DNA of 64,000 nt. Source: Roseobacter sinensis (GTDB taxonomy: Bacteria; Pseudomonadota; Alphaproteobacteria; Rhodobacterales; Rhodobacteraceae). The notes below the pieces were generated by a model. The model ran no database searches. It saw nothing but the letters and a program-made list of their open reading frames with translations, and was not told where the DNA came from. The stretch is taken from contig NZ_JALIEB010000001.1 in assembly GCF_025755255.1 (NCBI RefSeq), positions 186,001-250,000 on the forward strand, in the 5' to 3' direction. Numbering within the stretch: position 1 is the first letter of the stretch; each line of letters opens with the position of its first letter. The position numbers and the translations under genes are program-made. Shown here one piece after another: positions 28,487 through 36,872 of this stretch.

Positions 28487-29082
28487 TGTTCCAGATCTCC
28501 CCGTAAGGTCAGATAGGCCAGAAGCTCCAGCAGCGGCAGGCCCAGCACGTTGAAGTAATCCCCTTCGATGCGGGTGAACAGCCGCACGCCTTCCTCCTCC
28601 AGCTTGTAGGCGCCAACCGCATGTTGGATCCCCGCCCAGTTCCGCGCAACGTAGCTTGCGATGTAACTGTCGGACGCGTTCCGCATGTGCAGACGAACCT
28701 GCCCCACATGCCGCCAGATGGGCTTTCCGGCCTCGCAGATCACGGCGGCGGAAAGCAGCATGTGCCGATCGTTGCGCAAGGCTTTCAGTTGTGTCTCCGC
28801 CTCTTCGGGAGAGCTAGGCTTGGAGAGCAGCGCACCCCGATGATCGAGCACCTGATCACAGCCCAGAACGAGCGCCTCCGGATGCTTTTCACTCACCTTC
28901 CGGGCTTTCAATTCGGCAAGCGCGTCAGCAATATCACGGGGCGGGGCCACTTCGGCCAGCATGGCGTCGCGGACCATCTCTTCGTCGACACGCGCCGGCG
29001 CAACCGTGAAATCGACCGCCGCCTGACGCAAAAGCTGCGCACGGATCTCGGAGGACGACGCCAGAATGATCGGCTGGGCCAT
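28483..29082 (-). CDS. Maf family nucleotide pyrophosphatase
   Basis: A 199-residue Maf-like protein beginning QPIILASSSEIRAQLLRQA, with VLGCDQVLDHRG (catalytic Asp) and AYKLEEEGVRLFTRIEGDYFNVLGLPL. Maf proteins hydrolyse dTTP, UTP, CTP or modified nucleotides and are proposed to sanitise nucleotide pools or slow division. It is the first gene leftward from the putative origin, matching the Caulobacter-type layout in which maf-aroE-coaE-dnaQ lies beside oriC. Confidence 0.92.
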   Translation of the reverse strand: MAQPIILASSSEIRAQLLRQAAVDFTVAPARVDEEMVRDAMLAEVAPPRDIADALAELKARKVSEKHPEALVLGCDQVLDHRGALLSKPSSPEEAETQLKALRNDRHMLLSAAVICEAGKPIWRHVGQVRLHMRNASDSYIASYVARNWAGIQHAVGAYKLEEEGVRLFTRIEGDYFNVLGLPLLELLAYLTLRGDLEQ

Positions 29083-29104
29083 GTGGGTAAGCCTGTGAAT
29101 ACGG

Positions 29105-29119
29105 TTAAGGATTTCTTAA
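29105..29119. promoter_or_regulatory. CtrA-type binding site in the putative origin
   Basis: TTAA at 29105-29108 and 29116-29119 with exactly seven bases between them gives the full CtrA pattern. It lies within an AT-rich stretch just upstream of maf. In Caulobacter, CtrA sites in the origin block initiation; whether that holds here is not known. Confidence 0.6.
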
Positions 29120-29227
29120 TATGTTCTTCTGGGGAAATTGGCCGGATCGCGCAAGAGGAACAAATCTCATGGGCAAGTCTCGGCCCCGCCTGCGCTTCCC
29201 CCCTGGGAGGAAGGATAACCCGAGGCC

Positions 29228-29236
29228 TGTGCATAA
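29228..29236 (-). promoter_or_regulatory. DnaA box (exact TTATNCACA match)
   Basis: Read on the minus strand this is TTATGCACA, an exact fit to the DnaA-box consensus. It sits near the middle of the putative origin and is bracketed by an 8-bp inverted repeat. Confidence 0.7.
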
Positions 29237-29394
29237 GGCCCATTGATGAGATCTGCACACAAGGTTATCCCGGAGCGAAATTGGTCAACGCGCACCGACC
29301 CATCTGATAATCAAGGCGTTTCTCCCGACGTGAAAAGATATCCGTTTCCGGTCTGGCGGTTTTCCCCAAGCGGATAAGCCGAGGTACAAACGCC

Positions 29395-29403
29395 TAATCC
29401 ACA
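29395..29403 (+). promoter_or_regulatory. Near-consensus DnaA box
   Basis: TAATCCACA matches eight of nine DnaA-box positions. It lies close to the AT-rich stretch next to hemJ, which is the more likely unwinding region. Confidence 0.45.
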
Positions 29404-29486
29404 GAAAGCGCTGCCCCTACAATATCATCATCCTTTTCTCTTTCTTTATTAATGAATAAGAGAGGCCGACGGATCGGAGCGTTTCA

Positions 29487-29936
29487 ATGTCAGACCTGCT
29501 CATCGTGGCATATCCCTGGATCAAGGCGTTTCACATCATGGCGGTGATTGCCTGGATGGCCGGATTGTTCTACCTGCCACGGCTCTTCGTTTATCACGCA
29601 GAGCAGGTCGGACAAAGCGGCGAGACGCATGCGCTCTTTCAAACCATGGAGCTCAAGCTGCTTCGCGTGATCATGAACCCCGCCATGATCGCGACATGGG
29701 TTTTTGGGCTTTGTCTGGTCTTCACGCCAGGCATTGTGAGCTGGGCCGAGATCTGGCCCTGGACGAAAGCGGCCGGTGTTCTGGGAATGACCTGGTTTCA
29801 CCATTGGCTGGGGCTGCGGCGCAAGGATTTCGTCGCCGCCACGAACGCGCGGTCGGGCCGACACTATCGCTTAATGAACGAGGTGCCGACGCTGCTCATG
29901 GTGCTGATCGTTCTATCCGTGGTCGTGCGCTTCTGA
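29487..29936 (+). CDS. hemJ: Protoporphyrinogen IX oxidase HemJ
   Basis: A 149-residue integral membrane protein with four helices and the family-specific start YPWIKAFHIMAVIAWMAGLFYLPRLFVYH, whose histidines bind haem. HemJ oxidises protoporphyrinogen IX to protoporphyrin IX in haem and chlorophyll synthesis. It is the first gene rightward from the putative origin. CGGAGC precedes the ATG. The haem genes hemW and hemH are elsewhere in the window. Confidence 0.92.
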   Translation: MSDLLIVAYPWIKAFHIMAVIAWMAGLFYLPRLFVYHAEQVGQSGETHALFQTMELKLLRVIMNPAMIATWVFGLCLVFTPGIVSWAEIWPWTKAAGVLGMTWFHHWLGLRRKDFVAATNARSGRHYRLMNEVPTLLMVLIVLSVVVRF

Positions 29937-32689: not shown

Positions 32690-34561
32690 GTGTTTCACGT
32701 GAAACATTTTGATGTGATTGTCATTGGTGGTGGACATGCGGGCGTCGAGGCGGCGCATGCGTCAGCGCGGATGGGTGTGCAGACAGCGCTCGTCACACTG
32801 ACAGAGGCGGGAATCGGCGTCATGTCCTGCAACCCGGCCATCGGCGGGCTCGGCAAGGGCCATCTGGTACGGGAGATTGACGCACTTGATGGCGTCATGG
32901 GTCGTGTTGCCGACAAGGCAGGTATTCAGTTTCGCCTTCTCAATCGGCGCAAGGGCCCCGCAGTCCAAGGCCCACGGGCCCAGTCTGACCGCCAGATTTA
33001 CCGCACCGAGATGCTGTCTGAGATGAGATCGCAGGAGCACCTGACGATCATTTCGGGTGAGGTCATTGACTTCCGCATGAGCGGCGATCGGGTAGCTGGC
33101 GTTGTCTTGCATGATGGCAGTGAGATTTCAGCGAAATGCGTGGTTCTGACGACCGGGACGTTCTTGAGAGGCGTTATTCATATCGGAGATGTGGCCCGGT
33201 CGGGTGGACGAATGGGCGAAAAGGCCTCGGTCAAGCTGGCGGAACGGATTGATTCCCTTGAATTGCCGCTGGGCCGGCTGAAAACGGGAACACCCCCGCG
33301 CTTGGACGGAAAAGGCATCCGCTGGAACGATTTGGACGCCCAGCCCGGTGATGCGGAGCCGGTCCTGTTCTCCTTCCTCTCCGAGGGGGTTTCTGCGCGG
33401 CAGGTCTCCTGCGGGATCACGCATACAAATGAGCGGACGCACGAGATCATTCGCAAAAACCTGGACCGATCCGCCATGTATGGCGGCCATATCGAAGGAA
33501 TTGGCCCTCGATACTGCCCATCCATCGAGGATAAGATCGTCCGCTTCGCGGATAAGACCTCGCATCAGATCTTCCTGGAGCCCGAGGGGTTGACGACGGA
33601 TACCGTCTATCCCAACGGCATCTCGACCTCACTTCCGGAGTCGGTTCAGGAAGAGTACGTGCGATCGATCTATGGTCTTGAGGAGGCCGTCATACTCCAG
33701 CCGGGTTATGCGATCGAATATGACTATGTCGATCCGCGGGCGTTGGACGCCACGCTGGCGCTTCCTCGGGTGCCGGGCCTATATCTTGCGGGTCAGATCA
33801 ACGGAACTACAGGATATGAGGAGGCCGCGGCACAGGGGCTTGTCGCGGGGCTAAATGCGGCCTTGGCCGTGCATGGCCGCGAGCCAGTCATATTCTCCCG
33901 GTCAGAAAGCTACATCGGCGTGATGATTGACGATCTGACCACCCGGGGTGTCAGCGAGCCCTACCGCATGTTCACCTCTCGAGCGGAGTTTCGGCTGTCT
34001 TTGCGGGCTGATAACGCCGATCAACGCTTGACCCCATTGGGGCTCACAATTGGTTGCGTTGGGGAACAGCGCCGGGAGAGCTTCGAGGCGAAGTCGCGGG
34101 AGCTGGAAAGCGCGCGCATGATGCTGACCGCGCAAGAGTTCACCCCCACAATGGCCGGGATGGCTGGAATCAAGGTCAACCAGGACGGTACGAAGCGGAC
34201 AGCCATGCAGCTTTTGGCCTTTCCGGATGTTTCCTTTGCGCAGATTACCGCCTTGGATGCGGCTCTTTCGACGATTTCACGAGATATCCAGGCGCAGATG
34301 GAGAGAGAGGCGCTCTACGCGAACTATATTGAGCGTCAGCAGAAAGATATCGCGCTGTTGCAGAAGGATGAGGGGCACCGGATCCCGGAAGATTTCGATT
34401 ATGCCGGGCTTGACGGTCTATCGAACGAGCTGACAGCCAAGCTGGATGCGGTCCGGCCGACGTCGCTCGCGCAAGCATCGCGGATCGACGGGATCACACC
34501 GGCAGCTCTGACCTTGATTTTGGCGAAGCTCCGTCAGGCTGAGCGGAGACGACGCGCGTGA
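32690..34561 (+). CDS. mnmG: tRNA uridine-5-carboxymethylaminomethyl modification enzyme MnmG (GidA)
   Basis: A 623-residue FAD enzyme partnering MnmE. FAD-binding [17 protein letters not shown], the segments [22 protein letters not shown] and [11 protein letters not shown], and the late GxG motif [18 protein letters not shown] are all present. The start is GTG, at 32690 or 32699; GGAG is better spaced for 32699, but 32690 gives the FHVKHFDV N-terminus seen in relatives. Either way initiation takes place inside a parS site. The stop overlaps the GTG start of rsmG. Confidence 0.95.
32691..32706. promoter_or_regulatory. parS: parS centromere site 1
   Basis: The 16-base perfect palindrome TGTTTCACGTGAAACA, the consensus parS bound by ParB, lies across the first codons of mnmG and is read there as F-H-V-K-H. 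It is 3.2 kb from the putative origin and 3.3 kb before parB. Confidence 0.95.
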
Positions 34562-35163
34562 CAGTTCAGACTTCGGATGTTTCACGTGAAACACTGGAGA
34601 GGTTGGGCCGGTACCACGACTTGCTGCTCAAATGGTCGTCTCGGATCAATCTGATATCAAAATCCAGTACCTTCGATGTCTGGAACCGCCATATATGGGA
34701 CTCGGCACAAGTGTATCGTCTGGCGGACTCTAAGATGCGCTGGGCAGATCTCGGAAGCGGCGGTGGCCTGCCGGGCGTGGTACTGGCAATCTTGACGAAA
34801 GAAAACGCGCCTGACACAACATTCACCTTGGTCGAGAGCGATGTTCGGAAGGCGACCTTCCTCAGAACCGTCATTCGTGAGCTGGATTTGAACGCAACTG
34901 TCATCGTCAGCCGAATTGAGGCTGCAACGCCTTTGGACGCTCAAGTGCTGACTGCGCGGGCCCTGGCAGATCTTTCCGATCTTTTGTCCTTCGCCCAGCG
35001 TCATCTCAGCCCAGATGGGCAGGCGCTGTTTTTGAAGGGTGAAACCTGGGAAAAAGAGGTCGAAACTGCCCGGGAATCGTGGTCTTTTGAGCTTGCGGCG
35101 CATAAAAGCAAAACCAACCCGAATGCCGCCATTCTTGAGGTGAGAGAAATCGAACGTGTCTGA
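34558..35163 (+). CDS. rsmG: 16S rRNA (guanine(527)-N(7))-methyltransferase RsmG (GidB)
   Basis: A 201-residue class I methyltransferase making m7G527 in 16S rRNA. The AdoMet motif I is [17 protein letters not shown], followed by [15 protein letters not shown] and SRIEA. It starts with GTG at 34558, overlapping the mnmG stop by three bases (GTGA). Residues 7-13 (DVSRETL) are encoded by the second parS site. The 3' end overlaps parA by eight bases. Confidence 0.95.
34578..34593. promoter_or_regulatory. parS: parS centromere site 2
   Basis: A second exact copy of TGTTTCACGTGAAACA lies inside the rsmG coding region, read as V-S-R-E-T, a different frame from site 1. The two sites are 1.9 kb apart and flank mnmG. 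Confidence 0.95.
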
Positions 35164-35965
35164 CTTGTCACGCCCTGAAGGCCCCAAGATCATTGCAGTT
35201 GCCAACCAGAAAGGCGGCGTCGGCAAGACCACAACAGCGATAAACCTGGCCGCAGCACTTGCGGAAGCAGGGCGGAAGGTCCTCGTGATCGACCTCGATC
35301 CTCAGGGCAACGCGTCGACAGGTCTTGGCATCGACGTCGAGGACCGCGCCTATACGACCTATGATCTGCTTCTGGAAGATGTCGATCTGAGTGAGGTGAT
35401 CAGGCCAACACTGACGCCTGGGCTGATGATCGTGCCGGCCACCGTCGATCTGAGCTCGGCCGATATCGAGTTGATCGCAAATGAAAAGCGCAGCTTTTTG
35501 CTGCATGATGCGCTGCGGCAGACGGCGATGGATGCGTTTGGTTTTGAATACATCCTGATCGACTGTCCGCCGTCGCTCAATCTTCTGACGGTGAATGCGA
35601 TGATCGCGGCGCATTCCGTCCTTGTCCCGTTGCAGAGCGAATTCTTCGCGCTCGAAGGGTTGTCGCAGCTGATGCTGACGATTCGCGAGGTGCGGCAAAG
35701 CGGAAATAGGGACTTGCGGATCGAAGGTATTGTGTTGACCATGTTCGACAGACGCAACAACTTGTCTTTGCAGGTCGAACAGGATGCGCGCGACAATCTG
35801 GGAGAGCTGGTGTTCAGCACCCGTATTCCACGGAACGTCCGGGTCAGCGAGGCACCGTCTTTTGCGATGCCGGTGCTGTCATATGACACCGCATCGAAGG
35901 GCGCGCAGGCGTACCGGGACCTTGCGCGGGAAGTTCTGAACAGAAACACGAAGACGGCGGCATAG
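35156..35965 (+). CDS. parA: Chromosome partitioning ATPase ParA
   Basis: A 269-residue Walker-type ATPase with the deviant P-loop [17 protein letters not shown] (signature Lys), A' motif [14 protein letters not shown] and Walker [14 protein letters not shown]. It binds DNA nonspecifically as an ATP dimer and pulls ParB-parS complexes apart after replication. It overlaps rsmG and is one base from the longer parB reading frame, so the genes form one unit. Confidence 0.97.
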
Positions 35966-35975
35966 GGTGGCAGAT

Positions 35976-36872
35976 ATGGCAGGTGGAGCAGATCGGAAAC
36001 GCGGCTTGGGCCGAGGTCTGTCGGCCTTGATGTCGGACGTGGCCGAGACCGAGAGCGTCGTACGTGCGGGGCCTTCTGCAGCCGAGCGGCTGATCCCGAT
36101 CGAACAGATTTCGCCAAACCCTGATCAACCCCGGAAGCGGTTCGCAGAAGGGGACCTCGACGATCTCACGGCGTCGATCCGTGAGAAAGGGGTAATTCAA
36201 CCTCTGATTGTACGCGCCATCGGTGAAGACCGGTTCGAAATCGTCGCGGGAGAGCGGCGCTGGCGTGCAGCGCAGGCGGCAAAGCTGCATGAGTTGCCGG
36301 TGGTTGTCCGTAGCTTCACCGATGTTGAAGTGCTGGAAGTGGCGATCATCGAGAATATCCAACGTGCCGATCTCAACCCCGTTGAAGAGGCGGCGGGCTA
36401 TCGGCAGTTGATGGACCGTTTTGGGCACACTCAGGAGAAGATGGCCGAAGCCTTGGGCAAGAGCCGGAGCCATATCGCAAACCTGCTGCGGCTGCTGAAT
36501 CTGCCGGAAAGCGTTCTGGAGATGGTGCGCAAGGGCGATCTGAGTTCGGGGCACGCGCGGGCGCTGATCCCCGCCGACGATCCGCTGAAGCTGGCGCAGA
36601 TGATCGTGAAAGGCGGGTTGTCGGTGCGTGCGACAGAAGCGCTGGTCAAGAAACAGGCGGCGTCGGACGACGAGGCGCCGGTGCAGACGAGCCGACCGAT
36701 GACCGAGGCGAAGGACGCGGACACGAAGGCGTTGGAGGGCGATCTGTCGGCCGCGCTGGGTATGAAAGTGGTGCTCAGCCACAAGCCGGGCGGTGAGTCG
36801 GGTCAGATGACGGTGCATTACAAATCGCTCGACGATCTCGACGAGCTCTGCCGGGTCTTGAGCGGACGCTAG
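35976..36872 (+). CDS. parB: Chromosome partitioning protein ParB
   Basis: A 298-residue parS-binding CTP switch protein. It shows the N-terminal ParA-contact segment RGLGRGLSALMSD, Box I ISPNPDQPRKRF, the CTP-binding GERRWRAAQAAKL and ENIQRADLNPVEEA, and a helix-turn-helix (TQEKMAEALGKSRSHIANLLRLLNLP). Its targets are the two parS sites in this window and any others. ATG at 35976 has GGGTGG at suitable spacing; a GTG at 35967 would add three residues. The end overlaps convergent hemW by four bases. Confidence 0.96.
   Translation: MAGGADRKRGLGRGLSALMSDVAETESVVRAGPSAAERLIPIEQISPNPDQPRKRFAEGDLDDLTASIREKGVIQPLIVRAIGEDRFEIVAGERRWRAAQAAKLHELPVVVRSFTDVEVLEVAIIENIQRADLNPVEEAAGYRQLMDRFGHTQEKMAEALGKSRSHIANLLRLLNLPESVLEMVRKGDLSSGHARALIPADDPLKLAQMIVKGGLSVRATEALVKKQAASDDEAPVQTSRPMTEAKDADTKALEGDLSAALGMKVVLSHKPGGESGQMTVHYKSLDDLDELCRVLSGR

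Follow-up and report, generated by a model that had tools for sequence, protein, structure and literature searches.

The locus and its conservation

The window analysed here is a 64-kb stretch of DNA (G000:C16:186001–250000) from a 566,434-b contig (C16, the 566-kb contig) of a 4.9-Mb genome assembled in 77 contigs (G000). Within it, maf (start at 29082, minus strand) and hemJ (start at 29487, plus strand) diverge around a 404-b intergenic region at 29083–29486, a candidate oriC. The non-coding gap that an initial annotation of this DNA had proposed as a chromosomal replication origin is therefore real and runs from one gene start to the other. The gene names assigned to the surroundings hold for maf, aroE, coaE, dnaQ, hemJ, rho, mnmE, mnmG and parB, all nine of which exceed the curated NCBIfam cut-offs; the name parA is less secure, as the only matches are to ParA/MinD families and all fall below the cut-offs. 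The parA and parB genes occupy 35156–36872 on the plus strand. Two parS sites had been placed within 5.5 kb of the gap, and exact copies indeed occur at 32691–32706 and 34578–34593 (3.2 and 5.1 kb from the gap), the sole exact copies on the contig. The gap thus lies near both parS and parAB, with parA called below cut-off. The parS sites are situated at the 5′ ends of mnmG, in which the family match begins just past the site, and of the next open reading frame, a putative rsmG.

The gap measures 400–404 b in all 19 genomes of the genus, this one included, though much of its sequence differs, and in the genus alignment conserved blocks adjoin both start codons. The near-constant length of about 400 b suggests a single folded or looped nucleoprotein complex, the geometry of which must be kept. 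To set this in the context of the family, we used the best 80 of 572 confirmed loci from a HemJ alignment search (one of them, L113, is a copy of genus genome G018). The divergent maf–gap–hemJ arrangement is not special to this strain, as it is found in 75 of these best 80 loci. Gap length is 364–452 b in 73 of the 80, with others at 509 b (L188) and 1211 b (L180); match edges were extended to the first residue of the query, so lengths are approximate where a match starts inside. Two loci (L150 and L185) have too little left flank for a maf call, and within the available flanks of three Paracoccus loci (L168, L177 and L184) there was no maf match near hemJ. The gene order around the origin may be disrupted in these three loci; upstream of hemJ in L168 there is an open reading frame resembling a TRAP transporter. 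In 9 out of 9 genomes (including this one) the parS sites keep distances of about 3.2 and 5.1 kb to the gap, and exact parS sites are present in 66 of 71 full-length family loci.

DnaA boxes and other elements

Only three sites in the 64 kb are within one mismatch of TTATCCACA (29082, 29228 and 29395), and all are in the gap or at its edge. Their number is unremarkable (3 observed compared with 4.2 expected from shuffles); it is their grouping that marks the gap. Across the entire contig there are 46 sites with at most one mismatch and no exact TTATCCACA, and three within 500 b occur solely at the gap. The same applies to a 400-kb stretch of each of two other genomes (G006 and G009), in which the homologous gap holds the sole group of three boxes in 500 b. 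When two mismatches are allowed, two other places on the contig reach the same top density as the gap (5 per 400 b), and by this looser measure the gap is not distinctive. The non-coding region thus carries a cluster of at least three boxes, the leftmost of which shares one base with the maf start codon.

This leftmost box-like site (TTACCCACA, 29082–29090, minus strand) has at most one mismatch in 17 of the 19 genus genomes, and a box of that quality lies over the maf start codon in 32 of the 75 family gaps. It was overlooked in the initial annotation, although it is better than the weak second left box that was listed at 29094–29102 (minus strand). The latter scores 8/9 against TTATNCACA, as had been stated, but only 7/9 against TTATCCACA, with two mismatches here and two to five across the genus. 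Likewise, the central box TTATGCACA (29228–29236, minus strand), described as exact, is exact with respect to TTATNCACA and one base off TTATCCACA. The right box at 29395–29403 is confirmed as TAATCCACA on the plus strand, matching at 8/9 positions. Aligned across the genus, sites with at most two mismatches fall into fixed slots at gap positions 146 (the central box, 16/19 genomes), 171 (13/19) and 311–314 (the right box, 19/19); the slot at position 171 is absent as a box in this genome, in which the corresponding 29253–29261 (plus strand) reads CTGCACACA. No position rose above 2 in 100 shuffled sets.

The inverted pair reported around the central box is present, with its halves at 29213–29220 (GGATAACC) and 29263–29270 (GGTTATCC). 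An IHF-like site at 29309 also stands as a match (12 of 13 positions of WATCAANNNNTTR, which we take to be the IHF consensus and used for scoring), but it is not conserved in the alignment of 19 genus genomes. IHF-dependent bending was rejected on these grounds.

The motif TTAA-N7-TTAA at 29105–29119 is a candidate CtrA site that adjoins the left boxes without overlapping them. It is exact and in the same place in 12 of 19 genus genomes, occurs three times on the 566-kb contig, and is found at gap position 22 in 3 of 75 family gaps. The motif fits the CtrA site described for Caulobacter (PMC4285127, PMC10225481), but it could just as well belong to the maf promoter. According to PMC8116508, losing the CtrA phosphorelay is not lethal, apparently with reference to Rhodobacterales. 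Further to the right, TTTTCCCCA at 29360–29368 of the window contains the hexamer TCCCCA, with similar letters in several genus genomes; TCCCCA is described as a weak W-box hexamer of Caulobacter (PMC4285127).

A right-end module next to hemJ

The two AT-rich stretches noted in the gap are both seen. One includes the least stable 40-mer of the window (29421–29460; the lowest of 63,961), a candidate unwinding element that provides the gap with an easily melted stretch. The other lies in the middle of the gap (29283–29347); in 12 of the 19 genus genomes, this one not among them, the 40-mer of lowest stability within the gap begins there (gap positions 201–226). Stability thus points to the middle stretch as the melting site in those 12 genomes and to the right end here.

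The right end has a recognizable order of elements. In a number of family members, two boxes in tandem (TAATCC.CA and then TTATCCACA) come first; after them there are about four letters, mostly G/C, and next CTAC, repeats of the ATC type and an AT-rich tract. In the window, the right box is followed by a 9-nt slot (29404–29412, plus strand), which is not box-like here and is occupied by the second tandem box in those family members, and then by CTAC plus ATCATCATCCTTTTC (29417–29438, plus strand), trinucleotide repeats that resemble DnaA-trios. Across the genus the second box is unrecognizable, yet the spacing from AATCC to CCTAC is identical in 17 of 19 genomes. We scored this core in 100 gaps: 19 from the genus, 8 flanked by a regulator gene (described below) and 73 from the family, that is, the 75 gaps minus L113 and L180, which has about 800 b extra. 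A score of at least 10 was reached in 58 of the 100 gaps (17/19 genus, 36/73 family and 5/8 regulator-type) compared with 3.5% of shuffles; a few of the 58 are probably off the true core (for example, L131, at 131 b from hemJ). At least three tandem ATC units are present in 26 of the 58 core-scoring gaps, for which the shuffle fraction rounds to 0.00. Lower-strand NAN runs of at least three were found in 42 of the 58, yet also in 49% of shuffles, and therefore say little. Across the whole genome of the window, a strict version of the core pattern had a single match, located at the gap, and none in the reverse reading. As a family marker this strict pattern was discarded as too narrow (8 of 197 genomes).

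The module resembles the basal unwinding system (BUS; DnaA-boxes 6/7 plus DnaA-trios), as described in PMC8287927 and PMC6669920, in having a box, a second box or its slot, a short GC stretch, repeats and an AT-rich tract in the same order. It differs in that the second box is unrecognizable in the genus, and in that the genus lower-strand repeat, read 3′ to 5′, is TAG as opposed to the BUS consensus GAT; some family members have AAC repeats, which lack the middle A on the lower strand. The published rule requires a box with at most 2 mismatches, a spacer of 0–16 and at least three 3′-NAN-5′ trios. It gave no match in the gap of this genome, in which the repeats begin 20 nt past the box as opposed to the limit of 16, and we therefore rejected strict BUS membership of this gap. 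Applied to whole gaps, the rule matched 5/19 in the genus (shuffle mean of 3.2), 43/73 in the family (10.1) and 2/8 of regulator type (0.8). Within the last 115 b of the gap the counts were 0/19 for the genus and 25/73 for the family, rising to 17/19 and 40/73 with a spacer of up to 20. The stricter trio [G/A]A[T/A] gave 0/19, 2/73 and, for regulator-type gaps, 0/8. Judged from its layout, the right-end module may work like a BUS, and we do not file it as one.

These elements are compatible with the following course of initiation. DnaA would bind the left and central boxes together with the invariant right box (29395–29403). Starting there, a filament of ATP–DnaA would extend across the GC stretch and then the trinucleotide repeats, and would melt the AT-rich tract before hemJ, where the helicase would be loaded. 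ParB at the two parS sites could then separate the new origins. An origin that instead melts at the middle AT-rich stretch, by an Escherichia coli-like loop-back with IHF and not through a right-end filament on the repeats, would draw on the IHF-like site at 29309 and on the position of the least stable 40-mer in the majority of the genus. We consider this unlikely: the IHF-like site is unconserved in the genus, whereas the box, CTAC and the ATC repeats are conserved, and in this genome the least stable stretch is at the right end.

GC skew and the position of the origin

The GC skew of the window changes sign at about 29–30 kb, and within the 200–230-kb stretch of the contig the cumulative skew reaches its minimum at window position 29444 (−3711), within the gap. 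A skew minimum elsewhere in the replicon had been named as the observation that would speak against an origin here, and on this point the genomes differ. In G009, a single 5.08-Mb contig of which 400 kb were covered, the minimum (2,701,993) falls within the gap (2,701,631–2,702,034). The overall lowest value on the window's contig (−3764) is at C16:158139, 57 kb to the left of the gap and 8 kb from dnaA (166190). The G006 curve, followed over 400 kb, bottoms out in a flat trough at a distance of about 98 kb from the gap. When twenty 20-kb samples were taken around each chromosome, those of G006 clearly carried one sign per side, with flips near the chromosome start and near 2.0–2.3 Mb, the pattern that an origin at 77 kb would give; in G009 this held only noisily. 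Skew by itself is decisive in one of the three genomes (G009, and not C16 or G006).

A flat skew trough of some 60–100 kb lies beside the gap in two of these genomes, from about −20 kb to 77 kb in G006:C1 and at C16:158–215 kb (from dnaA to the gap). The stretch looks as if it had been turned around in the past.

The skew profile of the contig allows an origin near dnaA (C16:158–167 kb), with the gap reduced to a divergent promoter region that has a few DnaA-regulated sites. We regard this as very improbable. The dnaA region has no box cluster, the only sites within 10 kb of the skew low point or of dnaA being TCATCCACA (155345) and TGATCCACA (166567, inside dnaA); the two low points of the skew differ by 53 units, where the trough is about 3,700 deep; and both the parS sites and the G009 minimum point to the gap. 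A plasmid origin was also considered and rejected, as blastn against 72,556 plasmid records found nothing that matched the gap and the contig carries dnaA, rho and mnmEG.

Exchange of the flanking genes

The initial annotation remarked that the pyruvate phosphate dikinase (PPDK) regulator and hemE do not flank this gap, and this is correct: the regulator was not found in the assembly, and hemE is on a contig other than C16. We surveyed the regulator in 198 genomes drawn evenly from the larger family group, taking PF03618 to be DUF299/COG1806, the family of the regulator. It is present in 8 of the 198 genomes and flanks the corresponding gap in all 8. Three of these (G022, G072 and G119) have both flanks of the Caulobacter type, with the order regulator, gap, hemE and then hemJ; in the other five (G019, G033, G075, G092 and G180) the regulator alone is kept and the gap is followed directly by hemJ. 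These regulator-type gaps measure 408–475 b from match edge to match edge. In the five genomes with hemJ directly at the gap, and in five other genus genomes examined, hemE is away from hemJ. The last 125 b of the long L180 gap are identical to those of G033, from which L180 probably has the order maf, regulator, gap, hemJ. Read from gene orders rather than from a tree, the succession would be that hemE left first, the regulator was then lost, and maf is now beside the origin. The view of this locus as a shortened Caulobacter arrangement is therefore right in substance, as relatives keep the regulator and hemE. Comparison of the loci indicates that the origin stayed in place while its neighbours changed.

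These exchanges bear on whether the gap is conserved solely for the promoters and leaders that maf and hemJ share there. Although it lies between divergent genes and its conserved blocks adjoin both start codons, we give this almost no credence: a mere promoter set is unlikely to persist through flank swaps, whereas a gap of similar length remains when the regulator replaces maf or hemE replaces hemJ, the core score is reached in five of the eight flank-swapped gaps (against the low fraction of shuffles), and promoters leave the box cluster, the constant length in all 19 genus genomes and the skew turn unexplained. That only five of the eight regulator-type gaps pass the core score also counts against the origin reading itself.

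Taken together, the cluster of three boxes, the parS sites, the conserved gap and the exchange of flanks point to an origin, as does the published maf-adjacent oriC (PMC4793288). We conclude with high confidence that the 404-b gap is a chromosomal origin, as was proposed initially, and the single oriC. More tentatively, and with somewhat less than even confidence in the whole, we propose that an origin module of about 400 b, shared across the family, has outlived the stepwise exchange of both its neighbours, and that the genus has a variant unwinding system, made up of the invariant box, a 9-nt second-box slot that has lost its sequence and 3′-TAG-5′ repeats, together with a CtrA-type site beside the outer boxes.

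Relation to described origins

A few further alphaproteobacterial origins have been identified since 2007. In that year, the Caulobacter origin was described as the only one identified experimentally among alphaproteobacteria (PMC1914354). For Rickettsiales, the same source describes the location at hemE/COG1806, gap lengths near 400 b and an exchange of boundary genes. The locus studied here resembles the origins of Caulobacter crescentus (Cori) and Rickettsia in that a gap of about this length combines DnaA sites with AT-rich DNA. It differs from Cori in that hemE is elsewhere and the regulator is absent, so that the gap lacks the hemE/COG1806 flanks, in having one TTAA-N7-TTAA motif compared with the five CtrA sites reported for Cori (PMC1914354), and in that its IHF-like site is not conserved.

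The gap adjoins maf, as is typical of Rhodobacteraceae, in which an oriC adjacent to maf is conserved according to DoriC (PMC4793288). In this respect the origin is well supported but ordinary, because a maf-adjacent oriC has already been published for this family. In the relevant parts of that paper, the predicted oriCs on the maf side in Ketogulonicigenium vulgare and DoriC come with no name for the gene on the other side and no element map. The present analysis adds the hemJ side, the almost unvarying length, the boxes in fixed slots, the module at the right end and the exchange of flanks. For 101 Rhodobacteraceae strains, oriCs were predicted with Ori-Finder from skew, boxes and parAB (PMC6699656); these are from the same family, the choice rested, as here, on the skew minimum, a local minimum of GC and proximity to parAB, and by term count the main text contains neither 'maf' nor 'hemE'. 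Judged by titles and the starts of abstracts, in a search that left most subscription journals outside, we found no description of an element map, the hemJ side or stepwise flank exchange in Rhodobacteraceae.

With its conserved element map, this 404-b candidate is defined precisely enough to be targeted in marker-frequency, melting and mutation tests. It can reveal whether DnaA is guided by the length of the slot or by the sequence of the box, and whether CtrA makes contact with the origin in members of the Roseobacter group.
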